This document shows, piece by piece, positions 2,397 through 55,238 of a stretch of DNA of 64,000 bases. Position 1 is the first letter of the stretch. Each line of letters begins with the position of its first letter. The stretch is from a virus: positions 31,492-95,491 of IMG/VR virus record IMGVR_UViG_3300044644_000679. The stretch is one strand, 5' to 3'. Below the pieces are notes generated by a model that had not been told where the DNA came from, did no database searches, and saw only the letters and a program-made list of their open reading frames with translations. Made by a program: the position numbers and the translations under genes.

Positions 2397-2818
2397 GTTT
2401 GATACTCCACACATTCGACATCAGATTCATGAAATAATTCCCTTGATAATTCAAAGTCTTTTTCCCATCTATCTATTTTGTTTACGAATGAAACTATTCT
2501 GCTTATTCCTGACTGTATTATTAAACCAGCACATCTTGGACATGGCATAAATGGGTAAGTATATAAAGTACATCCTTCTACAGATTTATTAGCAAATAAG
2601 ATTGCATTTATCTCGCCGTGTACAATAATATTATACTTTGTATCTCTCTCTTTCAGTCTATCATTATCTTCTATATGTTTAGGAAAACCATTATATCCAA
2701 CAGAGACTATTCTATTATTTTTATCAACTATGACAGCACCAACTTTAGTCGATGGATCTTTAGACCATCCAGAAATAAATTTAGCTAAATCAAGAAACCT
2801 ATAATCCCATTTAGACAT
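2393..2818 (-). CDS. dCMP deaminase
   Basis: 141 aa. Zinc ligands are visible as His67-Gly-Glu69 (HGEIN) and Pro92-Cys93-x2-Cys96 (PCPRC); the N-terminal WSKDPSTKVGAVIVD block is typical of ComEB/T4 Cd-type enzymes. It would convert dCMP to dUMP, the substrate of the ThyX encoded at 7911-8546. The start overlaps the preceding stop as TAATG. Length fits the family. Confidence 0.88.
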   Translation of the reverse strand: MSKWDYRFLDLAKFISGWSKDPSTKVGAVIVDKNNRIVSVGYNGFPKHIEDNDRLKERDTKYNIIVHGEINAILFANKSVEGCTLYTYPFMPCPRCAGLIIQSGISRIVSFVNKIDRWEKDFELSRELFHESDVECVEYQT

Positions 2819-3384
2819 TATAATTCCCAAACTATTTGATAGCCATCAAAAATAGGATCTATACCTATGTTCTTCATAAATTGTTTAACGTATTTACCTT
2901 TACCGTGTCCATTTTCAAAATTGTCATCTACAGCAATTATAGTTCCGGCAGAACATGAAGGCCAAATACATAACAATTCCATAATATGGTGCATAGATGA
3001 TGGGTGAGGATTGTTATGATCAAAATCGTAAGAATCTAGATACAAAAGATCTACTGTTTTGTTTATTTCTCTCAACTGTTTATTCATATGAAATAAATAA
3101 GAAACTGAATCAGAACATATAAGACTTATATTTTTAGTTATACTTTTTGCTAATTCTATATTATATGGATTTATATCTATTGAATAACATTGACCTTTAT
3201 TGTCTTGAATAAACTTATCAAATATTACAGTTGACATTCCAGCACCGTAATCATTTACTTGTCTTACACAGCCAGTTTCTATAATCAACGGACTATCTTT
3301 TTTTGATAATTTGTCAATCATCAATTGAAAAGATTCTTTGCGTAATCCATTATTGTTTATTATTTCTTGTAATTCCAGTTCCAT
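2818..3384 (-). CDS. Class I SAM-dependent methyltransferase
   Basis: 188 aa. Rossmann motifs in order: IIETGCVRQVNDYGAGMST (motif I region, about residues 34-52), YSIDINP (acidic loop binding SAM), LLYLDSYD and AVDDNFENG near the end. This pattern resembles Methyltransf_24-type enzymes, often linked to glycan modification, but the substrate is not evident. It shares TAATG junctions with both neighbours, so it is co-translated with GMP reductase and dCMP deaminase. Confidence 0.7.
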   Translation of the reverse strand: MELELQEIINNNGLRKESFQLMIDKLSKKDSPLIIETGCVRQVNDYGAGMSTVIFDKFIQDNKGQCYSIDINPYNIELAKSITKNISLICSDSVSYLFHMNKQLREINKTVDLLYLDSYDFDHNNPHPSSMHHIMELLCIWPSCSAGTIIAVDDNFENGHGKGKYVKQFMKNIGIDPIFDGYQIVWEL

Positions 3385-4427
3385 TAAATGCTCCTATCAA
3401 AGTGTACCCTATTAACTTTAACAAATTCTGCACATTTTGGAAGGTCTTTTATACTATCTGCCCCAACATATGCACAAGCACTTCTGATACCACCCAATAT
3501 ATCATCAATGACATCTGATACCTCACCCTTATATTCTACCGTCTTAACGCGACCTTCACTGGCCCTATAATTTTTAATTCCACCATATTTTTCCTGTGCT
3601 GCATGGGAACTCATCCCATAGAATGTTAAAACCCTACTACCGTTTATATGACTCCATTCTCCACTGCATTCCTCTGTACCAGCAATCATGCCTCCAAGCA
3701 TAACAAAGTCTGCACCAGCAGCAAATGCTTTTACAACGTCTGCTGGAGTCCTACAGCCACCATCTGCACAAATTAGACCCAAGTGCTTGTGTTGTGCTTT
3801 TAATCCATGGGCAGCGTGAGAGCATTCATTAATTGCTGATAATTGAGGATATCCTACTCCAGCTTTTAGTCTTGTTGTACATGCTGATCCCGGCCCAATT
3901 CCAACCTTAACAATATCAACGCCACCGTGAAGAATTAATTCATGAACCATTTCGGGAGTACATACATTGCCAGCCATTATAACGGGCCTAGTTCCAAACT
4001 TCTCCCTTATTTTTGCACAGTGGTCTACAAACTTATCTGTATATCCATTAGCAACATCAATACAGATATTTGGTATATCTTCTATTCTATCAACTATCTT
4101 CCTAAGTTTGCTGACTTCTTCATCATTAATTCCCATGCTATACCAAAATGTATTTAGATCTTGGAGATTTTCTATATAATCTTCTATATTATAATGTTTG
4201 TGTAGGCATGTGATACAATTTTTCTTTGATAGAGATTCTGCCATTTCGAATGTGCCAGTGGTATCCATATTCGCGGCCATTATAGGAACACCACTCCACT
4301 CCAAAGATGAGTGAAAAAATTTAAACGTTCTTTTTACATCGACCAAGGACCGTGAGGCGGCTCGGGATCTCTGTGGAACGAGTAATACATCATCGAAATC
4401 AAGTTTTGTATCGTTATTAATATTCAT
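3384..4427 (-). CDS. guaC: GMP reductase
   Basis: 347 aa, the same length as E. coli GuaC. Visible are LDFDDVLLVPQR at the N-terminus, the nucleotide loop GIGPGSACTTR with catalytic Cys183, and ADGGCRTPADVVKAF. The enzyme reduces GMP to IMP with NADPH. The TTR after the catalytic Cys is typical of GMP reductase rather than IMP dehydrogenase, and there is no CBS insert. It begins just after the rIIB terminator, with GGAG upstream. A phage guaC would rebalance purine pools during DNA synthesis. Confidence 0.88.
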   Translation of the reverse strand: MNINNDTKLDFDDVLLVPQRSRAASRSLVDVKRTFKFFHSSLEWSGVPIMAANMDTTGTFEMAESLSKKNCITCLHKHYNIEDYIENLQDLNTFWYSMGINDEEVSKLRKIVDRIEDIPNICIDVANGYTDKFVDHCAKIREKFGTRPVIMAGNVCTPEMVHELILHGGVDIVKVGIGPGSACTTRLKAGVGYPQLSAINECSHAAHGLKAQHKHLGLICADGGCRTPADVVKAFAAGADFVMLGGMIAGTEECSGEWSHINGSRVLTFYGMSSHAAQEKYGGIKNYRASEGRVKTVEYKGEVSDVIDDILGGIRSACAYVGADSIKDLPKCAEFVKVNRVHFDRSI

Positions 4428-9248: not shown

Positions 9249-9592
9249 TTTTGTAATTGGTCTTCTGACCTTACCTTTTGCTTGTGGGAATACCCACTAG
9301 AAAATCCAGACATAAATGCTTCTTTTAAAAGCGGAATATCACTCTTCATTATGTTCTGGTTTTGTAGCCAATCGATGAACATTTTATCTTCGTCGCAAAG
9401 TTCTGGCCCACATAATTCATTATACCTATACTTTATGGTATTAAACATACTGTCTATGCATATAAAGTAGAAGTCATCTTTTATACAAGAATTTTCAAAA
9501 TTCTGATGCCATCCAGATATTACCACAATATCTCCAGAATGGGTGTAAATTTTATCACCAATTTTTATACGCAAGGCTTCTTTAAATATCAT
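9245..9592 (-). CDS. Hypothetical protein
   Basis: 115 aa; the first third (IKIGDKIYTHSGDIVVISGW) looks like a small beta barrel, and the last third is basic. It overlaps the glycosyltransferase-like gene by 11 bases and couples to the next gene by ATGA. No family recognised. Confidence 0.6.
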   Translation of the reverse strand: MIFKEALRIKIGDKIYTHSGDIVVISGWHQNFENSCIKDDFYFICIDSMFNTIKYRYNELCGPELCDEDKMFIDWLQNQNIMKSDIPLLKEAFMSGFSSGYSHKQKVRSEDQLQK

Positions 9593-10229
9593 ATAATTTT
9601 TCTTTTGCTATTATCTCATAATATTCTGGAGTAAATTCGCCTTTTCTCATAGCTTCATTGTACCAAGGCGTATCTTGTTTGTCAAACAGTATTCTGTGTT
9701 GCATACTGCTATTTAATCTTTTAGACCCATTTACCTCAAATTCCCAAGGGTTTTCTGAACCGTGGTTGATCAAGCAAGATTTAAAAAACTCTTTATTCCA
9801 TATAGAAGCTTGCATTGATATTGTATATAAACTATGCTGACGCAATGCATACATGTTTCCTATTATATGAAACTTATTATATAATCTACTATCTTCATGA
9901 ATTCCTAATCTATTTATTCCCTGCCGACATATTTGAATATACATATCAAATTGTGACTTTGGTATAGTTTTTCTCAAAAAATAATCATCCTGTAACCATA
10001 ATACGTACTCTGTATCGACTCTATCTAGAGCATACTTTAGACAATCTGAATAAGGTATTTTGCCCGGTAAAATAGATTTAAAACCATAGTCGTTAAATTC
10101 TAGGGTTTCTGATAAAAAATATCTTGGAATATCTATATTGTGGTCCCAGTATCTGTTGAATAATAGACCAAATTTGTTCCATAGGAAATTGTATTTATCG
10201 CAAGTGCCGACTAATAAAGTAATGTCCAT
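9582..10229 (-). CDS. Glycosyltransferase-like protein
   Basis: 215 aa. The N-terminal strand MDITLLVGTCDKYNFL and the segment YVLWLQDDYFL (about residues 73-83) resemble the nucleotide-sugar fold and DxD-like metal site of GT-A glycosyltransferases seen in phages and capsule loci. First gene of the thyX operon. No sigma70 promoter is evident immediately upstream. The acceptor is unknown. Confidence 0.5.
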   Translation of the reverse strand: MDITLLVGTCDKYNFLWNKFGLLFNRYWDHNIDIPRYFLSETLEFNDYGFKSILPGKIPYSDCLKYALDRVDTEYVLWLQDDYFLRKTIPKSQFDMYIQICRQGINRLGIHEDSRLYNKFHIIGNMYALRQHSLYTISMQASIWNKEFFKSCLINHGSENPWEFEVNGSKRLNSSMQHRILFDKQDTPWYNEAMRKGEFTPEYYEIIAKEKLYDI

Positions 10230-13658: not shown

Positions 13659-13687
13659 ATTGTATCTCTATTAGTTGCTATTGTCAA
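13659..13687 (-). promoter_or_regulatory. Sigma70-type promoter before tRNA-Ser
   Basis: -35 TTGACA, 17-bp spacer, -10 TACAAT. It sits in the 35-base gap between the tmRNA 3' end and tRNA-Ser. Confidence 0.8.
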
Positions 13688-13688
13688 G

Positions 13689-14036
13689 TGGAGGCGGCGA
13701 GAATCGAACTCGCGTCCAGAATAATTTCAATATAAACATCTACATCCTTAGTTAGTTGTTCTCGCACAGCTAACAAAGCTAACAGAATTATCTGTGTCAG
13801 ATTGAATACAATCATTACCCCCATTTATGTTTGGTGAGGATACCATATCCGATTATCGGAGTCAGCATGATTGGGCAATACGGTTCATGCCACCGCACTC
13901 TTGCCTAACTAGGTCAGGCAGCGAGAGCGAAACGAGTTTCGCCAACTAACATTTTAATCGACTTTTATACTGGCCGGTCGATTAACCAGTGGATGCCATC
14001 TATATATCCGTTTACCTGTCGATACCTTTCGCCCCC
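13689..14036 (-). ncRNA. ssrA: Transfer-messenger RNA (tmRNA)
   Basis: 348 nt, one-piece. The 5' end GGGGGCG pairs with 3' CGCCUCC to close the alanine-type acceptor; discriminator A; T arm GCGAG/CTCGC with UUCGAUU loop. The 5' end continues AAAGGTATCGACAGG, the tmRNA D-analogue. An internal open frame encodes the tag GETRFALAA, preceded by UUAGUU and followed by UGA within the helix GCCTGA...TTAGGC (P5). CCA is not encoded. It begins one base after the stop of the thioredoxin gene, so it is probably processed from that transcript. It would rescue stalled ribosomes and tag nascent proteins for ClpXP-type degradation. Confidence 0.95.
13914..13943 (-). other. tmRNA tag-peptide reading frame (GETRFALAA)
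   Basis: Ten codons: resume codon GGC (Gly), then E T R F A L A A and UGA. The ALAA end is the ClpX-recognised form in bacteria. The preceding UUAGUU resembles the bases that set the resume frame in other tmRNAs. Confidence 0.9.
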
Positions 14037-22040: not shown

Positions 22041-22306
22041 GAGTAGTCGGATTCGAACCGACACTTTAAGGATTTTCTTACTACTATAGTTTTCACTACC
22101 ATTTCTGTTTGTAGTCTGGACTTTATCTTAACCATAACTTTCGTTTTAGGTTCCTGCCGTTAAGTCTCTACACCTTCATATTTCTATGCTTGGCTCGGTA
22201 TTAGCAGTTAAGCCTTCACCGAATTTGACAGGTTCTACATTAAAAGTTTCCTTTTATGCACTCAAATTGTATAAGTCCTTTGCCTCTGCCGTTGGGCTAT
22301 ACTCCC
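22038..22306 (-). tRNA. tRNA with UAA anticodon, split by a group I intron
   Basis: Exons 22273-22306 (34 nt) and 22038-22076 (39 nt) give a 73-nt tRNA: acceptor GGGAGTA/TACTCCT, discriminator A, anticodon stem AAGGA/TCCTT, loop CTT|AAAA with the intron after U34. The anticodon is UAA (leucine codon UUA). The variable region is only AAAGT, 5 nt, whereas bacterial tRNA-Leu has a long variable arm. So either it is an atypical leucine tRNA or its charging differs. T arm GTCGG/CCGAC. CCA not encoded. Confidence 0.88.
22077..22272 (-). other. Group I intron (IC3-like), 196 nt
   Basis: P1 pairs exon ACUU with guide GAGU, placing a U-G pair at the 5' splice site; the intron ends in G. Core words in order: TGTCAAATTCGG, then CCGAGCCAAGC, then GGTGTAGAGACTTAACGGC, then TTAAGATAAAGTCC. 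These match, word by word, the small IC3 introns of bacterial tRNA genes (Azoarcus tRNA-Ile, cyanobacterial tRNA-Leu). Insertion is at the U34|A35 site used in cyanobacterial tRNA-Leu(UAA). No open reading frame is inside; the nearby HNH gene may serve mobility. Confidence 0.92.
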
Positions 22307-24554: not shown

Positions 24555-24879
24555 TTTTATTATCCTTTGCTGCAAAAGTCATACAATTTAAATCAGTATC
24601 CCAATAAGTGTCAATTAAATCTTTAGAAGCCATTTTAGATAAATGAACCCCTAAAACCCAATCATTTACATCAGTAAATATCTTTTGTAAAAGCTTAGTA
24701 TTTAATAAGTAATCTCCATCTCTTTCAATGGCGTGTTGTTTTATAATAGATACTATCTCACTTGGCTTTATAAAGCCAGTAAGTTGATCTAATGGTATTT
24801 CTCTATTTCTGGCAACGTCTTTGCCAATATGCTTTGCTGTCTTTTTTAAGTGTTTAATTCTAACTAGTGGGTCTTCCAT
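24535..24879 (-). CDS. Hypothetical protein
   Basis: 114 aa, MEDPLVRIKHLKKTAKHIGK, basic N-terminus, helical. Its ATG overlaps the UvdE stop as TAATG, so it is co-translated with the repair enzyme. Function unknown. Confidence 0.6.
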   Translation of the reverse strand: MEDPLVRIKHLKKTAKHIGKDVARNREIPLDQLTGFIKPSEIVSIIKQHAIERDGDYLLNTKLLQKIFTDVNDWVLGVHLSKMASKDLIDTYWDTDLNCMTFAAKDNKNGKKTI

Positions 24880-25790
24880 TATGCACCTATCAAATTGTTA
24901 GTGTAACGAGATATTGCATTATCCTTCATCTTGAGTTCAAAGTCAAGATCAAAATCTAATCCATAAGTGTTAAAAGAATTATTTGCGTAATCAGCGTGTG
25001 CTCTTGGGTTATTACCGGGACGGCTTTCGCTGTAGTGGAACAGGGGTTTATAGTCGCCCCACGTTGCATAGCAAGCGTTTATAGCCTCTTCCTCTGATAA
25101 ACCGTCTGGATGGCAGGCATGATGTAAGTAGTCGAATGTAATGGGTATGTTGGTTTTAGAATGGAATATAGAGGTAAGTTCACGTACACTCCAGCAATTT
25201 ACTTTATCATCGTTTTCGATGACAAGCCTGCTACGGCAATTGGGATCAAGAAGATTAAAACTGTTAGTAAATCTAGATATAATAGACTCATAATCGCCCG
25301 TTTTGTTGTGTACGTGTAAATTCATGGGTGATCGGTAGTCTGCTGGGCATCCTATACGATCCATGAAAGATGAATAAAAATTAAGTTCTGTAATTGTTTT
25401 GTTTGCTACATCTTTAGACAAACTTGCTAGACTATTATACTCAGATGGATGTAAAGATATCCTTACTTGATTTTGCGATATTGTATTAGCTATTGAATCA
25501 AACTCATCTTGAATATCGTCATAATTTGGTAGATTTTCTAAATATATATCTGCTTTATCATATGTAATTAATGGAAATAAGTCGCTACTTAACCTATAAG
25601 TAAGATTATTATTAGCACAATATTCTATTGTTTTATTTGTAGTTATCATGTTATTGAGTATTCTTTCGCCAAGAATAGAAAGAGCTTCGTCTTTTGGTAA
25701 AGATGAAAATCTTTTATATGTCATAGTTTGAAATGAATATCCTAAATTTTTGACATTTAAAGATATACAGCAAAGACCAATTTTATTCAT
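24879..25790 (-). CDS. uvdE: UV damage endonuclease (UvdE/UvsE family)
   Basis: 303 aa TIM-barrel repair enzyme. Diagnostic segments: NKIGLCCISLN, RISLHPSEYNSL, NLHVHNKTGDYE, RLVIENDDKVNCWSV, PITFDYLHHACHP and LFHYSESRP, supplying the His/Glu/Asp metal ligands. It nicks DNA 5' of UV photoproducts and other lesions. The likely promoter (26456-26483) is separated from it by a plus-strand HNH gene. No Shine-Dalgarno is evident. Confidence 0.92.
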   Translation of the reverse strand: MNKIGLCCISLNVKNLGYSFQTMTYKRFSSLPKDEALSILGERILNNMITTNKTIEYCANNNLTYRLSSDLFPLITYDKADIYLENLPNYDDIQDEFDSIANTISQNQVRISLHPSEYNSLASLSKDVANKTITELNFYSSFMDRIGCPADYRSPMNLHVHNKTGDYESIISRFTNSFNLLDPNCRSRLVIENDDKVNCWSVRELTSIFHSKTNIPITFDYLHHACHPDGLSEEEAINACYATWGDYKPLFHYSESRPGNNPRAHADYANNSFNTYGLDFDLDFELKMKDNAISRYTNNLIGA

Positions 25791-44785: not shown

Positions 44786-44956
44786 ATGAAAAAGAAACAA
44801 ACAATTGAAACGCAATTGGATTGTCGCGCTACCGCTTCTTTACAGCAACAAATAGAATCTGACTTAAATCAGACGGATAAATCACTAGCATCGTTACTCT
44901 CCACCAAGGACAAGGACACTGAAGAGGACAACGATGAAACAAAGTCAAGCGATTGA
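44786..44956 (+). CDS. Small charged protein, first late gene
   Basis: 56 aa starting MKKKQTIETQLDCRATASLQ behind ATAGGAGA; the 49-codon upstream extension crosses the promoter and is ignored. Helical, with an Asp/Glu/Lys-rich tail. Overlaps the next gene by 23 bases. Function unknown. Confidence 0.62.
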   Translation: MKKKQTIETQLDCRATASLQQQIESDLNQTDKSLASLLSTKDKDTEEDNDETKSSD

Positions 44957-45713
44957 AGCTGTAAAACCTTGTGATGATCCAAGTAGCAACGATCTATTAT
45001 TATGTGGAATAGATGATATACAACGTGCAAATATAGAATTTTCAGAAGCCGTATATTATAAACACATTACTGAAGATAACACAGTTGCTAATTCAATCGG
45101 CCTCGGCCCCAATAATAAATTCTTTTATAGGTTGGTTTGTTATCAGAATAATGTTATAGTTGGCCATGAAACTGGCATTGGTTATGCCTATGAGTCTGAA
45201 GGCAAGCATTATTTCAAGCGAGATTTGCCACTAGTTCACGGAAAGAACGAAAAACACTTACAAGTTATTACTAATAACTGTTTAAGATTTCACTTTCCTC
45301 CAGATAGTACTAGCATACTATCTTCAGACATCCCCCCTAACTTATCTCTCTTATTTCATACAAAGAACTGCGTACTGGCTTCTAGAGATCAGTTCGCCCC
45401 ATCCGCGTTAGAGATTCTAGATAATTGTGTTTTAACATCAATGCATGGAGAGTTGACTAACCTAGCATTTGATAGCAAAACATTTAGCGATATTATTGCT
45501 GAATCTTTGACGAAGTATACTAAACAGCTATCGCTTAAAACTTCAAAACTTAGCGTTAACAAGCTATCGGTAAAACATTTACAATTAGATTCTTCTAGCG
45601 ATCTTAACGTTAAGAAGGGTACTTTTATTTACGACGAAACAACGGACACCGTTAAGTTCTATAACGGTTCGAAATGGAGAACATTAAAGTGGGTAGAAGA
45701 CGAGTCGGAATGA
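44934..45713 (+). CDS. Virion-type hypothetical protein
   Basis: 259 aa. The end (GTFIYDETTDTVKFYNGSKW) is the short beta module common at the ends of phage fibre and adhesin proteins; the preceding repeats (LSLKTSKLSVNKLSVKHLQL) look like a beta-helix stalk. The N-terminal half is not recognised. ATGA with the sigma-like gene. Confidence 0.55.
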   Translation: MKQSQAIEAVKPCDDPSSNDLLLCGIDDIQRANIEFSEAVYYKHITEDNTVANSIGLGPNNKFFYRLVCYQNNVIVGHETGIGYAYESEGKHYFKRDLPLVHGKNEKHLQVITNNCLRFHFPPDSTSILSSDIPPNLSLLFHTKNCVLASRDQFAPSALEILDNCVLTSMHGELTNLAFDSKTFSDIIAESLTKYTKQLSLKTSKLSVNKLSVKHLQLDSSSDLNVKKGTFIYDETTDTVKFYNGSKWRTLKWVEDESE

Positions 45714-46198
45714 AGATACCTAAAAATATGACAGAACAACAGGTGGTAGATCAGATTAACATTGTCGTTAATAGGATATCATCACGATATACTTTTCATG
45801 GATATGAGGTTGAGGATATAAAACAAGAAGCTTTTATTATTTGCATGGATGCTATGGACCGCTATGATCCAAGTCGCCCCTTGGAGAATTTCTTATCAGT
45901 TCACCTATCTAATAGACTTAAAAACTTCGTTCGTGATAATTTTTACACCAAAGATGAAGAAGAAAAGAAAAAGATCCTAAAACCCAGTAGTTTATCTTAT
46001 GAAGATTATGTTCCTCATGAAGATAAAGTTGAGGATGACAAAATAGACGCCCAAGCCCTACAAAAGACTATTGATATGAGATTACCAGCAGAATACCGAT
46101 CTGATTACCTAAAAATAATTAATGACGTATACGTACCGAAAAAAAGAAGAGAAGAAATCATTGAAATAATCAAGGAGTTGCTTGATGAAGAAGGGTAG
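45710..46198 (+). CDS. Sigma factor-like protein (sigma region 2), probable late sigma
   Basis: 162 aa starting MKIPKNMTEQQVVDQ. Residues 30-78 (GYEVEDIKQEAFIICMDAMD, then RYDPSRPLENFLSVHLSNRL and KNFVRDNF) match sigma70 region 2, the part that binds the polymerase clamp and the -10 element: compare DLxQExxxxxxxAxxRYDP and Fxxxxxxxxxxxxxxxx. There is no obvious region 4, as in T4 gp55, which directs late transcription from -10-only promoters. Position at the head of the late operon fits. Confidence 0.75.
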   Translation: MKIPKNMTEQQVVDQINIVVNRISSRYTFHGYEVEDIKQEAFIICMDAMDRYDPSRPLENFLSVHLSNRLKNFVRDNFYTKDEEEKKKILKPSSLSYEDYVPHEDKVEDDKIDAQALQKTIDMRLPAEYRSDYLKIINDVYVPKKRREEIIEIIKELLDEEG

Positions 46199-46970
46199 AA
46201 TCTCTAAAGACGAGGAGCGAACAATCGGCAGGCTAATTAATAGCTTAACCATAGAAGATATCGCCAAACAACTCGACCGTGACGTTGAATCCATTGACAA
46301 CTTTGTTAAGCGCAAGTTCAAGGTTGGATTATCAAACGAAGAAGCCGCCGCATACTCTCTAGAAGATCGCCCCTATTGGATTGAATTAGAGAACCAGTTT
46401 ACTCCTTCAGAACTAGAGCTTTTTAAGTATCACTGGTCGCGCATAATTTCACAGTTCAAAGATGACGTTTTTCCAACAGAAGAACTACAGGTAGTAGATG
46501 TTATTAAGCTAGAAATACTTATGAACCGCTGCTTAAAGAGTAATAAAGATAACCTTAATGAGATGACCACTTTAGAAAAAATGTTAGCAGATGAGCGGGC
46601 CGTGGATAAGGATCAACGTGACCATGACTACGTTTTAAATCTAGAACGTCAACTAGCTTCCTTACGGGCTTCGCAAGAAGCCCTTAATAGGGACTACCGA
46701 GAACTCCAAAGCAAAAAGGCTAGCATGTTGCGTGAGATGAAAGGAACCAGAGAACAGAGAATCAAACGTCTTGAGGATAGTAAACAAAGCTTTACTTCTT
46801 GGGTTGCTCACCTTATGCAAGACCCCGAAACTCTAAAGCGATATGGGATCGAAATGGAGAAGATGAGGCTTGCTATGCTTAAGGAGAAAGAGCGTTTAAG
46901 TCAGTTCCATCAATATGAGGACGGACAGATTGATCAGCCATTCTTAACGCCAGACACGGTGATAGAATGA
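46185..46970 (+). CDS. terS: Probable terminase small subunit (HTH and coiled coil)
   Basis: 261 aa starting at ATG with AAGGAG upstream. Residues 8-42 (DEERTIGRLINSLTIEDIAK then QLDRDVESIDNFVKRK) form a helix-turn-helix like those that bind pac/cos DNA. Residues 130-240 are a long coiled coil suited to a ring-forming oligomer. The position upstream of TerL supports the assignment, although an unusual glycosylation cassette lies between. Confidence 0.55.
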   Translation: MKKGRISKDEERTIGRLINSLTIEDIAKQLDRDVESIDNFVKRKFKVGLSNEEAAAYSLEDRPYWIELENQFTPSELELFKYHWSRIISQFKDDVFPTEELQVVDVIKLEILMNRCLKSNKDNLNEMTTLEKMLADERAVDKDQRDHDYVLNLERQLASLRASQEALNRDYRELQSKKASMLREMKGTREQRIKRLEDSKQSFTSWVAHLMQDPETLKRYGIEMEKMRLAMLKEKERLSQFHQYEDGQIDQPFLTPDTVIE

Positions 46971-47653
46971 TTAGCGTTGTCACACTAACATATAGTAGGA
47001 CAAATTTGCTTGAAGAAGCTGTTAATTCTTTTTTACTGCAAGATGATCCTAGTTTTGAGATGATAATTGTAAATGATAAACACAATTTAACGTACACAAT
47101 TAATCATCCAAATATTAAAATTATTAATCTAGAAAATAGAACTAGTTGTATATTAGAAAAATTAATGATAGGTTTTAAACACGCCTCAAATGAATATATC
47201 TATAGACTAGACGATGATGATTTATTAACCCCTAATGCCTTAGTCAGTTGCTCAAAAGAAATAAAAAATAATCCGGGTTATGATTTATATAGATCCAAAA
47301 ATCATTATCATTTTGTAAACAATAAATTTGAACTCATATCTGATAGTATTAATAATGGAAATATATTTCGTAAAACACACTATTTAAATATATCCCATCC
47401 CCATAGAAGCATTGATGAGGATGTATATCTATTCGGTGAATGTGAAGCTAAAATTTTTGCTTATGATTTTATATCAATGATATACAGGTGGGGTATGAGT
47501 ACATTTCATATTAGCGGATATGGTATAATCCCTACTCAAGAATTATATAATAATCTATCAAATCATTTTCCACAAGAAGAGGGTCATAAAACTATAATCC
47601 CGAATTGGAAAGAGGATTATTGGAAACTACTTCCCGTAGGAGCTATGAAATGA
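46967..47653 (+). CDS. Family 2 glycosyltransferase
   Basis: 228 aa. GT-A fold: MISVVTLTYSRTNLLEEAVN, then FEMIIVNDKHN, and the metal site YIYRLDDDDLLTPNALV (DDD near residue 88). It would transfer a sugar from an NDP-sugar to a glycan or protein. The C-terminal part carries Trp/Tyr-rich acceptor elements. ATGA coupled to both neighbours, first of a three-gene sugar cassette. Confidence 0.85.
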   Translation: MISVVTLTYSRTNLLEEAVNSFLLQDDPSFEMIIVNDKHNLTYTINHPNIKIINLENRTSCILEKLMIGFKHASNEYIYRLDDDDLLTPNALVSCSKEIKNNPGYDLYRSKNHYHFVNNKFELISDSINNGNIFRKTHYLNISHPHRSIDEDVYLFGECEAKIFAYDFISMIYRWGMSTFHISGYGIIPTQELYNNLSNHFPQEEGHKTIIPNWKEDYWKLLPVGAMK

Positions 47654-48426
47654 TAATCATGCAAGTAATGGGAGGTTTAGGAAATCAAATATTTCAATGG
47701 GCTTATGGTAAGTGTCTTTCTAAAATTTACGATACACCATTTTATTTAGATGCCTCATTCTATGATAGAGAATGTGGTGCGACTCTTAGATCATTTTCTT
47801 TAAATAAATTTCCTAATATATCTTACGATTTAATAGAATATCCTTCCAGCACACCTCAAGACATCATTATTATCTATGATAATTTTTATTACAATAAAAT
47901 TTATTACGATCCTAGTCATAATTATTATTTAGGAGGGTATTGGCAATCTGAAAAATATTTTATAGATATAGAAAATACAATTAGAGATAATTTAGAACCA
48001 ACAGAGTCTATAAAAAATAAATTATTATCTGCTTATCCAGTTAGTAATTCAGTATCAATACATATTAGAAGGACGGATTATTTAGCACTTAGTACTATTC
48101 ATCCTGTACAATCTATAAGTTATTATGAAGAAGCTTTAAGCCTAGTCAAATATAAAAATATACTTGTATTTTCAGATGATATAGATTGGTGTAAACAAAG
48201 CTTAAAATTTAAAAATATGATTTTTGTTGAAAATAATGATAATATAGAAGATATGTGGTTAATGTCTTTATGCGAACATAATATCATAGCTAATTCATCT
48301 TTTTCTTGGTGGGGAGCTTGGCTTAACAAGAACAAAAATAAAACAGTCATAGCTCCATCTAAATGGTTTGGTGAAGGATACTTTTGCGATGTAGATATAG
48401 TGCCGAATAACTGGATTAAATTATAA
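47650..48426 (+). CDS. Family 11 glycosyltransferase (alpha-1,2-fucosyltransferase-like)
   Basis: 258 aa starting MIIMQVMGGLGNQIFQWAYG; ATG overlaps the upstream stop. GT11 motifs: GGLGNQIFQ (residues 8-16), GGYWQSEKYF, SIHIRRTDYL (the HxRRxD block that binds GDP-fucose), and ANSSFSWWGAWLN. It should transfer fucose or a related 6-deoxyhexose from a GDP-sugar. The next gene makes the GDP-sugar precursor. Confidence 0.9.
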   Translation: MIIMQVMGGLGNQIFQWAYGKCLSKIYDTPFYLDASFYDRECGATLRSFSLNKFPNISYDLIEYPSSTPQDIIIIYDNFYYNKIYYDPSHNYYLGGYWQSEKYFIDIENTIRDNLEPTESIKNKLLSAYPVSNSVSIHIRRTDYLALSTIHPVQSISYYEEALSLVKYKNILVFSDDIDWCKQSLKFKNMIFVENNDNIEDMWLMSLCEHNIIANSSFSWWGAWLNKNKNKTVIAPSKWFGEGYFCDVDIVPNNWIKL

Positions 48427-48435
48427 GGAAAATTT

Positions 48436-49527
48436 ATGAAAAAATCAATAATATTTGGAATAACGGGACAAGATGGTAGTCACCTAGCAGATCTATTATT
48501 AGATAAGGGGTACGATGTAATCGGGGTTACTCGACGCTCTAGTGTAGATAATACCCAAAGAATAAAGCATATATTGAATCATTCTAGGTTCAGTCTAGTC
48601 GAGGGGGACATAACCGATTCTAGTAGTGTTTTAAATATTCTTCGTAATAACGAACATGTAGATGAAGTCTACAACCTCGCCGCTCAATCTCATGTGGGAA
48701 CCTCATTCACTCAGCCTTCCCTGACTTGGGATATAACTGGCAAAGGGTGCTTAAATATATTGCAGACTATGGTAGATTTGGAGATGTTGGGCAGTAGGTT
48801 TTATCAAGCCTCCTCCAGCGAGATGTTTGGTAAAGCTTACGATATTGACAGGGATGGTACAAAATACCAAGATGAAAATACTAGATTTTTACCCCAATCC
48901 CCATACGCTGTAGCAAAGTGTGCTTCCCATTACGCCGTTGGTTTATATCGTCAGGCTTACGGAATACACGGTAGTTGTGGCATACTATTTAACCACGAAG
49001 GTCCAAGGCGCGGAGATAACTTCGTTACTAAAAAAGTAGTGAACTGGGTAGCTTCTTTCATAGATTGGATACATGATACTAATATTACTGATATGCAATA
49101 CCTTCAATCTTTAGATAATGATATTGTATATAATGATGTGACCTTTCCTAAGTTGATGTTAGGTAATTTGGACGCTTATAGAGATTGGGGATATGCTGGA
49201 GATTACGTAGAAGCTATGTGGCTAATGTTACAGCAAGATGAACCAGATGATTACGTTATATGTACAGAAAATACCTATTCTATTCGTGACTTATTAGATG
49301 CCGCTTTTGGCTATTTTGGTATTTATGATTGGAGTAATTATGTTGGAATAGATCCTAAATTCTACAGACCGGCAGAGGTAGATTACTTAAGAGGCAGATC
49401 AACTAAGGCCAGAGCTAAACTGGGATGGAAACCAAAATATGACTTAAATAGTCTTATTAAGCTTATGATAGAAGAGAAAATTAATGAAAACTTACAGAAT
49501 AATGCTCGACATATCAAATGTGTTTAG
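48436..49527 (+). CDS. gmd: GDP-mannose 4,6-dehydratase
   Basis: 363 aa (E. coli Gmd is 373). SDR signatures: GITGQDGSHLADLLL (NADP-binding), RRSSVDNTQRI, YNLAAQSHVG, YQASSSEMFG (Ser and Glu of the active site), SPYAVAK with YxxxK, FNHEGPRRGDNFVT, and RPAEVDYLRGR. Converts GDP-mannose to GDP-4-keto-6-deoxymannose, the precursor of GDP-fucose and GDP-rhamnose. No epimerase/reductase gene is visible, so the host may finish the pathway. AAGGAAAA precedes the start. Confidence 0.95.
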   Translation: MKKSIIFGITGQDGSHLADLLLDKGYDVIGVTRRSSVDNTQRIKHILNHSRFSLVEGDITDSSSVLNILRNNEHVDEVYNLAAQSHVGTSFTQPSLTWDITGKGCLNILQTMVDLEMLGSRFYQASSSEMFGKAYDIDRDGTKYQDENTRFLPQSPYAVAKCASHYAVGLYRQAYGIHGSCGILFNHEGPRRGDNFVTKKVVNWVASFIDWIHDTNITDMQYLQSLDNDIVYNDVTFPKLMLGNLDAYRDWGYAGDYVEAMWLMLQQDEPDDYVICTENTYSIRDLLDAAFGYFGIYDWSNYVGIDPKFYRPAEVDYLRGRSTKARAKLGWKPKYDLNSLIKLMIEEKINENLQNNARHIKCV

Positions 49528-49732
49528 CAGAATAAGACATTTATTTCTTAAATCATATAATAGTCCATTTCCTACTATATTCGTAAATGCAGATGACCCA
49601 GACGATGCGTGTTTTGTAGTTTTAAACGATCTCATAAAAATTATCATGAAGCAAAATCCCTCAATAGAGATGAGAATAGCTTGTATAGAAATTAGAAGAA
49701 AATCCAGAATAGATAAAATATACGAATTATGA
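49484..49732 (+). CDS. Hypothetical protein
   Basis: 82 aa, MKTYRIMLDISNVFSRIRHL, overlapping the end of gmd by 44 bases, with GAAGAGAA upstream; an alternative ATG at 49502 would shorten the overlap. Contains PFPTIFVNADDPDDACFVVL and a basic end. ATGA with the HNH gene. Function unknown. Confidence 0.55.
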   Translation: MKTYRIMLDISNVFSRIRHLFLKSYNSPFPTIFVNADDPDDACFVVLNDLIKIIMKQNPSIEMRIACIEIRRKSRIDKIYEL

Positions 49733-49989
49733 AAAGAAACTATGACGATCCAGCCTACGAAAGCTTCAGAAAATCTGTATTAAATAGAGATAAGAGAAAG
49801 TGTATGATGCCGGGATGCGGAAAAAAACTGTCTTTACAAGTACACCATATTAAAAAGTGGTCTAGAGCTAGTGCATTAAGATATGACGTTTCAAATGGTA
49901 TAACATTATGTAGAAAGTGCCATGACTCAATAAAGGGTTATGAACACCAATACGAATCATTATTTAGGATTATAGTCGATGACGTATAA
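49729..49989 (+). CDS. HNH endonuclease next to packaging genes
   Basis: 86 aa. HNH core KCMMPGCGKKLSLQVHHIKK then GITLCRKCHDSIKGYE with the two CxxC pairs and catalytic His. Small HNH proteins beside terminase genes act in DNA packaging in some phages. Its ATGA overlaps and fixed position here fit a functional packaging partner as well as a homing nuclease. Confidence 0.85.
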   Translation: MKRNYDDPAYESFRKSVLNRDKRKCMMPGCGKKLSLQVHHIKKWSRASALRYDVSNGITLCRKCHDSIKGYEHQYESLFRIIVDDV

Positions 49990-50479
49990 AGTTGCTCCAC
50001 CATTCACTGTTATAAAAGATACCAGAGAGCAGGACGGCTATTTTTTTAGCGAGTTCAATACTTGCGCTGGAATGATAGATCAAAAGCTGGATACTGGTGA
50101 TTATTCCATACTTGGAATGGAAGACAAAATATGTATAGAAAGAAAGGGTTGCGTTGAGGAACTAGCAGTTAATCTAGGACAAAAGAAACACGCATTCTTA
50201 GCTGAAGTAGAGCGAATGACTCCATTTCCTCATAAATTTATTGTCTTAGAATTTTCTTTAGAAGACCTCATCAAGTTCCCTGACGAAACAAGAATACCAG
50301 TTAAGAACAAGGGAGCTTTGAAGATTACTGGTAAATATATGTTAAAATGTTTGTTTGAATTTCAGCTATATAACAACGTTCAAATATTATTTTGTGGTAA
50401 TAAATATAATGCTTTTCTTGCGGTCAGTAGTATATTAAAAAGAGTAAATGAAATGTACACAATAGGGAGGAAGAAATGA
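49979..50479 (+). CDS. ERCC4-domain nuclease
   Basis: 166 aa. XPF/Mus81-type core: VIKDTREQDGYFF (Asp14), KLDTGDYSILG (Gly40-Asp41), and ICIERKGCVEELAVNLG (the ERKxxxD-like motif at 54-62, with the Asp replaced by Glu). The family cleaves branched DNA. With terminase and HNH nearby it may trim branches before packaging, replacing the usual endonuclease VII-type resolvase. Overlaps the HNH gene by 11 bases. Confidence 0.82.
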   Translation: MTYKVAPPFTVIKDTREQDGYFFSEFNTCAGMIDQKLDTGDYSILGMEDKICIERKGCVEELAVNLGQKKHAFLAEVERMTPFPHKFIVLEFSLEDLIKFPDETRIPVKNKGALKITGKYMLKCLFEFQLYNNVQILFCGNKYNAFLAVSSILKRVNEMYTIGRKK

Positions 50480-51120
50480 TGGCTGAACCAGAACTATTGA
50501 AAGATTTTCATGACTATGGAGCTAATATTGCCACAAGGGAAATATTCCTTCACAATCATTATCACGCTGAAGATAACCAAAACCCCGGCGTTGAATATAG
50601 GATGTCTAATACCTTTATTAAAAACTTAAGGGCATTAGATATGAGAAGTAATGCTAACATTACTATACATTGCCACAGTATTGGCGGTGAGTGGACAGAT
50701 GGCATGGCTATTTATGATGCTATACAGATGTGTAGATCATATGTGACAATTATCATTTATGGTCAGGCTGAGTCTATGAGTAGTATTTTTATGCAAGCGG
50801 CAGATTATCGCTATATGACTCCAAATGCCCACTTTATGTCTCATTATGGCTCAACTCTTATTGGTACAGATTATTTGAGTGCTATGAATCAAGCAGACTA
50901 CGAAAGAAAAACTGCGGATACAATGTTTAATATTTATGCTGGAAGATGTGTCGAGGGCAAGTTCTTCTATGAAAAATTTGGAAAGAAGCCAAGCGTGAAA
51001 CAAGTTCGCCAATATCTAATTAGGAAACTGAAATCTGGAGATTGGTATCTTAGTGCAGAGGAAGCTGTTTATTACGGTTTCGCTGATTCTATATTACGAA
51101 ACTGGCATTTCACAGAATGA
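50476..51120 (+). CDS. ClpP-like prohead protease
   Basis: 214 aa. ClpP/crotonase fold with catalytic Ser100 in YGQAESMSSIFM and His123 in HFMSHYGST, and the IHCHSIGGEWTDGMAIYDAI helix typical of S14 head-maturation proteases. Would cleave scaffold or capsid N-termini during head maturation. ATGATG start behind GGGAGG; ATGA with TerL. Confidence 0.9.
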   Translation: MMAEPELLKDFHDYGANIATREIFLHNHYHAEDNQNPGVEYRMSNTFIKNLRALDMRSNANITIHCHSIGGEWTDGMAIYDAIQMCRSYVTIIIYGQAESMSSIFMQAADYRYMTPNAHFMSHYGSTLIGTDYLSAMNQADYERKTADTMFNIYAGRCVEGKFFYEKFGKKPSVKQVRQYLIRKLKSGDWYLSAEEAVYYGFADSILRNWHFTE

Positions 51121-53105
51121 AAAAAGATAACCTCAAAATAATAGATGAGGCTTGGCTAGGTTTAGATGTCATTGAAGCTGACATTTTTAATCCTATGTCT
51201 ATTCTCAATCCATCAGATGATGATTTTCATCTCAAGCTTTCTTGGCTAATGAGTAGATCCGAGTATTTGCCATTCTTATGCCACCAGATATTGAATATAC
51301 AACTTCTGCCATCTCAGTCTCTTATTATCAACGAACTTTGGAATAGAAAGTTCCCAATGCTTGTTGGCAGTCGAGGTCTTGGTAAATCATTCCAGTTGTC
51401 GTTATATTCTATATTGAGGGCAATGTTAATGCCCAAGCGAAAGATTGTTATAGTTGGTGCTGCATTTAGACAATCCAAGGTTTTGTTTGAATACATGGAA
51501 ACTATATGGCGTAATGCTCCCATGTTAAGAGATATGTGCGATGGGAATAGCGGCCCAACGCGAGATGTTGATAGATGTACAATGAGAATTAATGAAAGCG
51601 TTATAACATGTTTACCACTAGGTGACGGTCAAAAGATTAGAGGTCAACGTGCTAATGATATTATTGCAGACGAGTTTGCTTCTATTCCTAGGGATATATT
51701 TGAAAATGTAGTCGCGGGCTTTGCTGCTGTTAGTGCTGATCCTGTGCAAAATGTTAAGAGAATATCCGCAAAAAAGAAGGCGGCAGAGCTTGGAATAGAA
51801 ATAGAAACTGAAGAAGAGAATACAGAGATAAAAGATAATCAAATTATTCTTTCTGGTACTGCTTATTATGATTTTAATCATTTTGCTACATATTGGAAAA
51901 AGTGGAAGGCTATTATAAAAAGCCGTGGTAATAGAGCTAAACTGACTGAAGTATTTGGTGGAGAACAACCCCCAGATACTTTTGATTGGCGTCAATATTC
52001 TATAATAAGAATGCCATACGAACTATTGCCAGTGGGTTTCATGGACGCTGATCAAGTAGCAAGGTCTAAGGCTACAGTACACGCTGGTATATATCAGATG
52101 GAATACGGGGCTTGCTTTACTAGAGACAGTCAGGGGTTCTTCAAAAGATCATTAATAGAGTCGTGTGTTGTTGGTAGTAATGATAACCCTGTCATGGACT
52201 CTAGAGGTGACATTATAAAGTTTGAAGCTTGTCTAATTGGCGATACAAATAAAAGATATGTTTTTGGCGTTGACCCCGCATCTGAAGTAGACAATTTTAG
52301 TATTGTAGTTCTAGAAATTAGTGGAGATCATAGAAAAATAGTTCATTGCTGGACCACAACGAGGCAAGAACACAAAGAAAAAGTGAAGAAGGGATATGCT
52401 AAAGAGTCAGATTTCTATGCATATTGTGCGAGAAAAATTAGAGATTTGATGAGACTCTTCCCATGTGTTCATATTGCTATGGATGCTCAAGGTGGCGGTG
52501 TTGCAATTATGGAATCACTACACGATAAAGATAAAATTAAAGATGATGAAATGCCTATCTGGCCTACAATTGATGACGATAAACCCAAAGATACAGACGG
52601 AGAAAGAGGGTTGCACATATTAGAAATGTGTCAATTTGCCAGATATGATTGGTTAGCAGAAGCTAATCACGGTATGAGAAAAGATTTTGAAGATAAGGTT
52701 CTGTTATTTCCATTCTTTGACTCTATAACACTTGGATTGTCAAATTCTGAAGATGGTTTAAAAAGCAGAATGTTTGACACTTTAGAAGAGTGCGTCATGG
52801 ATATAGAAGAACTTAAGGATGAATTATCTATGATCCAGATGACCCAAACATCTAATGGTAGAGACAGGTGGGACACTCCAGAGGTTATAGTTGGAACTGG
52901 TAGAAAAAGTAAAATGAGAAAAGATAGATATTCTGCACTCTTAATGGCTAATATGGCTGGTAGAATAATACACAGGACTCCAACCCCAGAAACCTATCAG
53001 TTTTATGGCGGTTTTGCTACTGGTGGTCATGTTCCAGCAAAAGAAGACGAAAAGCTATATATTGGCCCCAGTTGGTTCTCTGATAACATGAAAGATGTGT
53101 ATTAA
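51117..53105 (+). CDS. terL: Terminase large subunit
   Basis: 662 aa. ATPase: Walker A GSRGLGKS (84-91), Walker B NDIIADEF (Asp185-Glu186), and coupling motif SGTAYYD. Nuclease: FGVDPASEVDNFSIVVLE and HIAMDAQGGGVA supply the RNase H-like acidic residues. It is the packaging motor and cuts the concatemer. Start ATGA after the protease gene. Confidence 0.96.
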   Translation: MKKDNLKIIDEAWLGLDVIEADIFNPMSILNPSDDDFHLKLSWLMSRSEYLPFLCHQILNIQLLPSQSLIINELWNRKFPMLVGSRGLGKSFQLSLYSILRAMLMPKRKIVIVGAAFRQSKVLFEYMETIWRNAPMLRDMCDGNSGPTRDVDRCTMRINESVITCLPLGDGQKIRGQRANDIIADEFASIPRDIFENVVAGFAAVSADPVQNVKRISAKKKAAELGIEIETEEENTEIKDNQIILSGTAYYDFNHFATYWKKWKAIIKSRGNRAKLTEVFGGEQPPDTFDWRQYSIIRMPYELLPVGFMDADQVARSKATVHAGIYQMEYGACFTRDSQGFFKRSLIESCVVGSNDNPVMDSRGDIIKFEACLIGDTNKRYVFGVDPASEVDNFSIVVLEISGDHRKIVHCWTTTRQEHKEKVKKGYAKESDFYAYCARKIRDLMRLFPCVHIAMDAQGGGVAIMESLHDKDKIKDDEMPIWPTIDDDKPKDTDGERGLHILEMCQFARYDWLAEANHGMRKDFEDKVLLFPFFDSITLGLSNSEDGLKSRMFDTLEECVMDIEELKDELSMIQMTQTSNGRDRWDTPEVIVGTGRKSKMRKDRYSALLMANMAGRIIHRTPTPETYQFYGGFATGGHVPAKEDEKLYIGPSWFSDNMKDVY

Positions 53106-53144: not shown

Positions 53145-55238
53145 ATGAGTGAAGAAGACATGATAACTTGGTCAGATGACAATTTTTCTAGCAAATCTAA
53201 TGCTATGGAGAGGTTGTCCGACAATATCAACTCTTATTCTGGCTTAAATAAATCTACTGGTAGCGATGCTTATAGAACCTTTATAGACATTGAGCCAAAT
53301 AGGTCAGTAAGACCCGGTTTTAATAAACTTGATTATTACGCATTTAGACAAACCGAGTCTGTACCCACTCAACAACGACGCATTATTAAGATGTGTATGG
53401 ACGCTTACGATAAAGTTGGCATTATACGAAATATTATTGACTTGATGGGTGACTTTGGCAGTCAGGGTATAAGCATTGTACACCCTAATAAAACAGTTGA
53501 AAAATTTTACCAGCAATGGTTTAAGAGTGTAAATGGGAAAGAAAGATCAGAAAGATTCTTAAATAATCTTTATAAAACTGGCAATGTGATTATGTATCGC
53601 AGTTATGCCAATGTGACTCCAGAGCTTGAAAAGTACATGAAGTCTCTAGCAAAGGATATTAAGGTTGAAACTCCAAACATTAAGCAGAATCAGATTCCTT
53701 GGAGATATAACTTCTTTAGTCCTCTTAGTGTAGAGTTAAAAGATGGTAAGTTAGCACTGTTCATGGGTATCTCAAATTATACCTTGAGTGCTGGAACATT
53801 CTTAGATACTTTTCAGTCAGGCTCACTTCCCAACGATGTTCTTGATAGCTTGCCAACTGATATTAAGAAGGCATTGCTAAACAAAGAAAAAAGAATCCCA
53901 CTTGATTCAGAAAGACTTTGCGTTTTTCACTATAAGAAAGATGATTGGCAGATGTGGGCAAATCCCATGATCTATGCTATCTTAGATGATATTATTATGT
54001 TAGAAAAAATGAGATTAGCAGATATGTCCGCTTTGGATGGTGCTATTTCTAATATTCGTTTATGGACACTTGGCAATCTTGAACATAAAATTTTACCAAA
54101 CAAAACAGCTATTAACAAGTTGCGAGATATTCTAGCCAGTAATGTTGGTGGCGGCACGATGGAACTAGTTTGGGGGCCAGAACTATCCTTCAAAGAATCT
54201 AGCAGCGAAGTATACAAATTCCTTGGTTCTGAAAAATATACTTCGGTACTCAATAGTATATATGCTGGGTTGGGTGTTCCTCCAACATTAACTGGTATGG
54301 CTACTGGCGGTGGCGGCTTTACTAATAACTTCATTTCGCTCAAAACTCTAGTAGAAAGACTTCAGTATGGTAGAGATCAGTTAACTAGATTTTGGGAAAA
54401 AGAAATTGAAATGGTTAGACAGGCTATGGGTTTTAGATACAAAGCCTATATTCAGTTTGATCAAATGACCTTATCTGATGAAGCCGCAGAGAAAGCTCTT
54501 CTATTACAACTTGTGGATAGAGATATTATAAGTCAAGAAACTGTTCTTGAAAGATTTAAGGAGATTCCTCAGATCGAAAAGATTAGACTACAAAGAGAAT
54601 TTGATGAGAGGCAGGGCGAAGATACTCCAGATAAAGCTGGACCATTCCATAACGCTAATCATAAAATGGATTTGGAAAAGATTGCCTTACAGTCAGGAAA
54701 AGTAAATCCACAAGACGTTGGTTTAAAAACAAGTGTACCAAAAGATATATTGATGCCAAAACCACCAGCACCCGGTGGTGGTCTTCCAAATGCCCCTAAA
54801 CCTAGTAATCCAAATGGGCGACCGCTTTTTAAGCAAGATACCGGACCAAGAAAACAAAGGGTGGCAACTCCAAAAAAGAAACCGGGAGTAGCTGAGTTTG
54901 TATATTGGGCAGAAGAAAGCTGGAAAGAAATTTCAGACGTTCTTACTAATGCATATTTAAATTCTAAGTCTAAGAAGAACTTAAGGCAGCTAACAAAGTC
55001 AGAAGTAAAAGAACTTGAAAAATTTAAAGTAGATGTTCTTACTAATCTAGACATTATGTCTGAGGTAAATGCTACTTCAATAAGAGATATACTTAGTGAA
55101 AATAGAAAAACTCCTACAGCGTTTGCCAGCGTTCTACAAGAAGAAAGCATTAATCCAGAGTCAATGAATATAGACAAATACAGAATGCGCGTTATAAGTT
55201 TATATATCCAATCACAATTAGCAGAAATGGAAGAATAA
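53145..55238 (+). CDS. Portal protein
   Basis: 697 aa. Follows TerL after 40 bases with AAGGAAAA. Central part (IIRNIIDLMGDFGSQGISIV, then FFSPLSVELKDGKLALFMGI and GLGVPPTLTGMATGGGGFTN) has the SPP1/T4-like portal pattern, here long. The C-terminal 170 residues have a Pro/Gly-rich linker (MPKPPAPGGGLPNAPKPSNP) and a helical appendage. Forms the dodecameric DNA gate. Confidence 0.85.
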   Translation: MSEEDMITWSDDNFSSKSNAMERLSDNINSYSGLNKSTGSDAYRTFIDIEPNRSVRPGFNKLDYYAFRQTESVPTQQRRIIKMCMDAYDKVGIIRNIIDLMGDFGSQGISIVHPNKTVEKFYQQWFKSVNGKERSERFLNNLYKTGNVIMYRSYANVTPELEKYMKSLAKDIKVETPNIKQNQIPWRYNFFSPLSVELKDGKLALFMGISNYTLSAGTFLDTFQSGSLPNDVLDSLPTDIKKALLNKEKRIPLDSERLCVFHYKKDDWQMWANPMIYAILDDIIMLEKMRLADMSALDGAISNIRLWTLGNLEHKILPNKTAINKLRDILASNVGGGTMELVWGPELSFKESSSEVYKFLGSEKYTSVLNSIYAGLGVPPTLTGMATGGGGFTNNFISLKTLVERLQYGRDQLTRFWEKEIEMVRQAMGFRYKAYIQFDQMTLSDEAAEKALLLQLVDRDIISQETVLERFKEIPQIEKIRLQREFDERQGEDTPDKAGPFHNANHKMDLEKIALQSGKVNPQDVGLKTSVPKDILMPKPPAPGGGLPNAPKPSNPNGRPLFKQDTGPRKQRVATPKKKPGVAEFVYWAEESWKEISDVLTNAYLNSKSKKNLRQLTKSEVKELEKFKVDVLTNLDIMSEVNATSIRDILSENRKTPTAFASVLQEESINPESMNIDKYRMRVISLYIQSQLAEMEE

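Follow-up and report, generated by a model that had tools for sequence, protein, structure and literature searches.

Sugar-nucleotide and glycosyltransferase genes of phages are usually regarded as auxiliary genes, scattered and of uncertain use. Tailed phages are also known for moron or hypervariable cargo loci, in which exchangeable genes lie between conserved core genes, and for gtr clusters, sets of phage genes that modify a surface glycan and differ from one relative to the next; the locus described here shows the first trait and probably the second. Phage-encoded GDP-mannose 4,6-dehydratase (Gmd), Fcl and GT11 glycosyltransferases are already known from Kyanoviridae (PMC9602691), and virus-made GDP-fucose from chloroviruses (PMC5408694). 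Among the Kyanoviridae cyanophages, DSL-LC03, S-SCSM1 and P-SSM2 encode both Gmd and GT11, and the Synechococcus phages DSL-LC03 and S-SCSM1 also carry Fcl and an annotated alpha-1,2-fucosyltransferase. The chlorovirus PBCV-1 likewise encodes its own Gmd, together with GMER, which supply fucose and rhamnose for its glycans (PMC5408694). Here we analyzed a comparable gene set in an uncultured phage, within a window of 64,000 nucleotides (bases 31492-95491 of the 95,491-base linear IMG/VR record IMGVR_UViG_3300044644_000679; coordinates below are window positions unless a relative is named). Genes for a GT2 glycosyltransferase, a GT11 and a Gmd lie there between a probable small terminase (TerS) and further packaging genes. 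We found that Gmd is a resident of the packaging locus, close to fixation across a large phage clade, and that the slot between TerS and Gmd holds exchangeable cargo.

The initial annotation had read the three genes as one fucosylation cassette inserted among packaging genes. Its gene calls were borne out in position and strand, with family matches confirming each: GT2 (46967-47653, plus strand; PF00535, Glycos_transf_2, E 4e-13), GT11 (47650-48426, plus strand; PF01531, Glyco_transf_11, E 1e-32; phrog_2644, E 2e-52) and Gmd (48436-49527, plus strand; PF16363, GDP_Man_Dehyd, E 6e-106). The tight coupling that it had noted was also found, in the form of ATGA overlaps between TerS and GT2 (46967-46970) and between GT2 and GT11 (47650-47653), followed by a gap of 9 nt before Gmd. 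A three-gene insertion is excluded, however, since Gmd is resident and only GT2 and GT11 vary. To compare the locus we collected relatives as loci anchored on the large terminase (TerL; 51117-53105, plus strand; PF03237, E 7e-6; phrog_2, E 1.5e-23) from viral and genome contigs, counting distinct loci. Three of these (L010, L011 and L012) are 97% identical to this phage in TerL, 98-99% in TerS and 96-97% in Gmd, and differ from it in slot content. DNA homology to them ends at 46966-46972, at the TerS stop, and restarts at 48407-48442, at the Gmd start or no more than 29 bp upstream of it. Because homology breaks at the slot edges, with unrelated genes there in close relatives, the mobile cargo consists of GT2 and GT11 alone. 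DNA breakpoints at 46966-46972 and 48407-48448 and the slot census given below place the slot between the TerS stop and the Gmd start (46967-48435, plus strand). No shared recombination motif was seen by eye at the slot borders in four junctions.

The cargo pair differs in composition from its surroundings. GC content is 0.285 in GT2 and 0.273 in GT11 versus 0.34-0.42 in the surrounding genes, and at third codon positions (GC3) it is 0.20 and 0.18 versus about 0.29-0.43 in the flanking genes. Among relatives the pair was seen only in near-identical contigs; a GT2 relative with 43% identity occupies the same slot of L317. The HxRRxDY motif of GT11 is intact, its residues H140, R142, R143, D145 and Y146 being at least 90% conserved among 78 phage GT11s, and the protein is predicted from sequence to act as an alpha-1,2-fucosyltransferase, both donor and linkage being part of that prediction. 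A sequence search found no solved structural relative of GT11. Hydropathy revealed no transmembrane stretch in either GT2 or GT11, and the slot holds no further gene.

Gmd, by comparison with solved structures, belongs firmly among the enzymes of that name (phmmer E 1e-90). Its AlphaFold model (pLDDT 91) has Gmds as best structure matches (TM 0.77-0.86, 36-45% identity), and the GxxGQDG motif (G8, G11, Q12, D13 and G14) together with S128, E129, Y157, K161 and R192 is invariant in 98 relatives. Judged by these residues the enzyme appears catalytically intact and would act as a dehydratase. Gmd was found upstream of TerL in 54/54 distinct loci having at least 3.6 kb of upstream sequence, always in the order Gmd-HNH-ERCC4-TerL. 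TerL searches started from a distant and from a still more distant member found it in 37/37 and 13/33 loci, respectively. On a midpoint-rooted TerL tree the presence of Gmd changes four times with presence as the root state, and its absences are therefore best read mainly as losses, a reading that depends on the midpoint rooting. In Gmd-less loci with TerS visible, the HNH endonuclease gene that here forms the right border of Gmd (49729-49989, plus strand; sequence and synteny) directly adjoins TerS, at a distance of about 6-150 nt. At least two Gmd-less members (G030 and G032) have a strong Gmd match elsewhere in their record. In both, this Gmd adjoins a second epimerase-like gene, at about 30.9-32.7 kb in G030 (record of L453) and about 27.6-29.4 kb in G032 (record of L457).

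The history of Gmd follows that of the packaging locus in outline. When placed in a tree alongside Gmds of cyanophages, archaeal viruses and bacterial bins, the Gmds of the clade cluster together (SH-aLRT 93, short of the starred level), apart from those of the cyanophages, the archaeal viruses and three of the bins. Three bin sequences inside the group are phage copies, two of them identical to phage sequences and one nested. Cyanophage Gmds form a starred clade of their own (98) outside it. Distances for Gmd and for TerL are broadly concordant (Mantel r 0.68, permutation maximum 0.25), with local disagreement: 20 of the 58 supported splits in Gmd contradict TerL. Some Gmd exchange has therefore happened, and strict co-inheritance of the two genes holds only broadly.

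The adjoining slot is filled differently in different relatives. Out of 115 distinct TerS-Gmd junctions, 45 were empty (-8 to 24 nt), 65 were filled, usually with one to four open reading frames (ORFs), and 5 were intermediate. The empty or filled state changes 15 times on the TerL tree versus about 26 times with shuffled labels, and several pairs of loci with 96-99% TerL identity lack any slot similarity. The 107 slot ORFs, which were called mechanically so that some small ones may be non-genes, fall into 43 similarity groups. Representatives include methyltransferases, sulfotransferases, glycosyltransferases, a cytidylyltransferase and a cupin, the cargo being mostly methyl-, sulfo- and glycosyltransferases. 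Glycosyltransferase families found in the slot are GT2, GT6, GT11, GT25, GT29, GT90, GT92 and Gly_transf_sug/Caps_synth. A GT6 of the ABO-transferase family lies beside Gmd in L095 (3852-4613), with five related slot ORFs. Together with GT11, the H-antigen-synthase family, it may represent blood-group-like chemistry recurring in the slot. Glycan-type genes may also lie elsewhere in this genome, because a Methyltransf_24 gene (2818-3384, minus strand) and an ORF resembling by eye a common slot-cargo family (9582-10229, minus strand) are both located outside the slot.

We consider it reasonably probable that the resident Gmd supplies a deoxyhexose to the exchangeable tailoring slot, and that in this phage the outcome is fucosylation. 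Presumably expressed late, along with the packaging and structural genes, Gmd would convert host GDP-mannose to GDP-4-keto-6-deoxy-D-mannose, and a reductase/epimerase would complete the GDP-deoxyhexose. GT2 would then extend an acceptor glycan and GT11 would add alpha-linked fucose, so that a swap of cargo would alter the final glycan and leave the resident Gmd untouched. The initial annotation had likewise proposed fucosylation. That proposal stands in so far as Gmd and GT11 are genuine and form a coherent set; it describes this member and not the locus as a whole. The annotation had also suggested searching the phage genome for fcl and had assigned the last step to a host enzyme. The 95-kb record yielded no Fcl, which makes a host Fcl plausible and the most likely agent of that step in this phage. 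Fcl-type proteins are nevertheless encoded by 7 of the 23 relatives checked (G007, G010-G013, G017 and G023), with GDP-L-fucose synthase as best match, below the equivalog cut-off. In other, unrelated phages, 32 of 42 loci with GT11 and Gmd also hold Fcl, in two cases (L162 and L169) as a GT11-Gmd-Fcl tandem, which supports GDP-fucose as the predicted GT11 donor.

Several observations weigh against this account. Besides the 95-kb record, the close relatives G003 (149 kb), G004 (166 kb), G005 (101 kb) and G008 (145 kb) yielded no Fcl, all records being classed as linear and possibly fragments. GT11 is limited within the clade to near-identical contigs, and the resident Gmd must therefore serve other products elsewhere. 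A minority of the cargo is unrelated to glycans (fatty acid hydroxylase, lipid desaturase, radical SAM and MotA/ExbB-like proteins). Gmd itself misses the TIGR01472 equivalog cut-off with 360 versus 415 bits (residues 2-350, E 1e-107), a score that is probably lowered by a variable insertion at about residues 207-238, present in many clade members and ordered in the model. Finally, 20 distant members in the deeper TerL search lack Gmd between TerS and TerL, ruling out its strict universality.

The whole system probably customizes a surface sugar coat, and the alternatives differ in where the sugar goes and which sugar it is. We lean toward a virion protein as target, giving it about an even chance, because of the presumed late operon position and the soluble enzymes without a flippase. 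The host envelope comes out slightly below even, on account of the cargo families and of the published reading of the cyanophage gmd/fcl/GT11 sets as serving cell-wall or lipopolysaccharide modification (PMC9602691). An explanation confined to the envelope would have the phage modify lipopolysaccharide or another surface glycan late in infection, blocking superinfection or the re-adsorption of progeny to debris, with the virion left unmodified. Cargo resembling lipopolysaccharide and O-antigen tailoring enzymes (GT25, Caps_synth, sulfotransferases) is consistent with it, as is fast cargo swapping, which fits evasion of receptor competition. Yet the slot lacks a flippase or polytopic membrane protein, unlike gtrABC, and a place in the packaging and structural operon suggests expression alongside virion proteins, so that we regard this explanation as credible though somewhat improbable. 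A different product is also conceivable, if an unlikely one: a bifunctional resident Gmd could make GDP-D-rhamnose with no need for Fcl, the GT11-like cargo using another donor or the little GDP-fucose of the host. PBCV-1 Gmd provides the precedent, yielding both GDP-4-keto-6-deoxymannose and GDP-D-rhamnose, whereas ATCV-1 Gmd, 53% identical to it, has no GDP-D-rhamnose activity (PMC5408694), so that sequence cannot decide between the two. The absence of Fcl from most members checked would be accounted for in this way, but not the company that GT11 keeps with Fcl in other phages or the seven relatives with Fcl.

It is also quite improbable, in our view, that GT2 and GT11 are a recent and possibly transient moron of little function, next to a Gmd whose role is older and unrelated to fucose. 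The AT-rich composition of the pair and its confinement to near-identical contigs would fit, as would the frequency of empty slots; on the other hand, both frames are intact and start-stop coupled with conserved motifs, their donor use fits the adjoining Gmd, and GT11 is again found next to Gmd in unrelated phages. Glycosylation of DNA is known in other phages, and the location among packaging genes could suggest that a packaging-linked Gmd provides sugar for a hypermodified base. We judge this highly improbable: the cargo includes sulfotransferases and surface-glycan glycosyltransferases, not base-modifying enzymes, though no search was aimed at base hydroxymethylases. At its broadest, the preferred account of a deoxyhexose-supplying Gmd with a tailoring slot would become a clade-wide, modular virion-glycosylation system in the packaging operon, in which sets of glycosyl-, methyl- and sulfotransferases, GT11 and GT6 included, are swapped beside a fixed Gmd and change the glycan 'serotype' in one step. 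We offer this extension tentatively and consider it doubtful.

The surrounding genes form a rightward packaging and structural operon from about 44.6 kb, in the order p105, p259, sigma-70 region 2-like factor, probable TerS, GT2, GT11, Gmd, p82, HNH, ERCC4, Clp-type prohead protease, TerL and portal-like protein. The neighbors named in the initial annotation (TerS, HNH, ERCC4 and TerL) are thus in place, with the protease between ERCC4 and TerL as an addition. The first larger late gene, p259 (44934-45713, plus strand), has no Pfam or PHROG match and a C-terminal tail that looks fibre-like by eye. Its middle part diverges sharply among close relatives, DNA homology to L010-L012 being broken at about 45092-45483, and with this hypervariable middle in otherwise near-identical relatives the product may be exposed on the virion surface and is a potential acceptor of the glycan. 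The late operon has the sigma-70 region 2-like factor at its start (45674-46198, plus strand; PF04542, E 1.8e-7), which precedes the left slot border, a 262-aa protein (46182-46970, plus strand) conserved in intact loci. Its architecture (helix-turn-helix and long helices) and position suggest TerS; the fold match to HK97 TerS is weak and not significant (E 0.14), the PHROG match is to a transcription-regulator helix-turn-helix only, and the assignment is plausible by position only. On the other side of Gmd lie the small conserved gene p82 (49484-49732, plus strand; synteny), the ERCC4-type nuclease (49979-50479, plus strand; PF02732, E 8e-6; phrog_3490, E 6e-15), the Clp-type prohead (head maturation) protease (50476-51120, plus strand; PF00574, E 1e-23; phrog_94, E 2e-28) and, downstream of TerL and conserved there in relatives, a protein named portal-like from its position (53145-55238, plus strand).

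Elsewhere in the window, an IMP dehydrogenase/GMP reductase homologue (3384-4427, minus strand; PF00478, E 7e-72) could affect the guanine nucleotide pool feeding GDP-sugars. Further features are a UV-damage endonuclease UvdE homologue (24879-25790, minus strand; PF03851, E 9e-42), a group I intron match (22096-22282, minus strand; RF00028, 58.7 bits) and a transfer-messenger RNA (tmRNA) gene (13686-14036, minus strand; RF00023, 108.8 bits) with the tag GETRFALAA. Of 14 long viral records from the clade, 11 had a tmRNA match above the Rfam cut-off, and their tags varied. The tag of this phage is similar to GENNYALAA from a Flavobacteriales bin, a weak host hint. Assigning a host from TerL in bacterial bins was abandoned, as the metagenome-assembled genomes concerned (SAR202, Alphaproteobacteria, two Flavobacteriales and Gemmataceae) are too scattered.

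How, then, does this locus compare with the systems described so far? The phage collection held no close isolate (best TerL 25-28%, best Gmd 46%), and a limited open-access literature search returned nothing on point for phage GT11 or Gmd linked to packaging. Identity to cyanophage proteins is about 45% for Gmd and at best 38% for GT11. In cyanophages, including Prochlorococcus phage P-SSM2, the stretches shown have Gmd outside the packaging locus, and the Gmds form a distinct clade, whereas here the gene resides between TerS and HNH beside a swap slot, with Fcl missing or elsewhere. PBCV-1 is a eukaryotic algal virus with established capsid glycans, in contrast to the proposed virion glycans here. 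The serotype-converting gtr clusters of P22-like phages and epsilon34 (PMC2629481) encode a GtrA flippase and a membrane-bound GtrB, neither of which is found in this slot. As far as the collections searched show, the novelty lies in a packaging-locus Gmd fixed across a diverse uncultured clade and in the swap slot adjoining it. Near-identical phages that differ in the slot only can now be compared for matching glycan differences, which makes the function of such a gene testable. Unlike in moron loci, a single resident sugar-nucleotide enzyme anchors this slot, and most of the cargo is of the glycan-tailoring kind.

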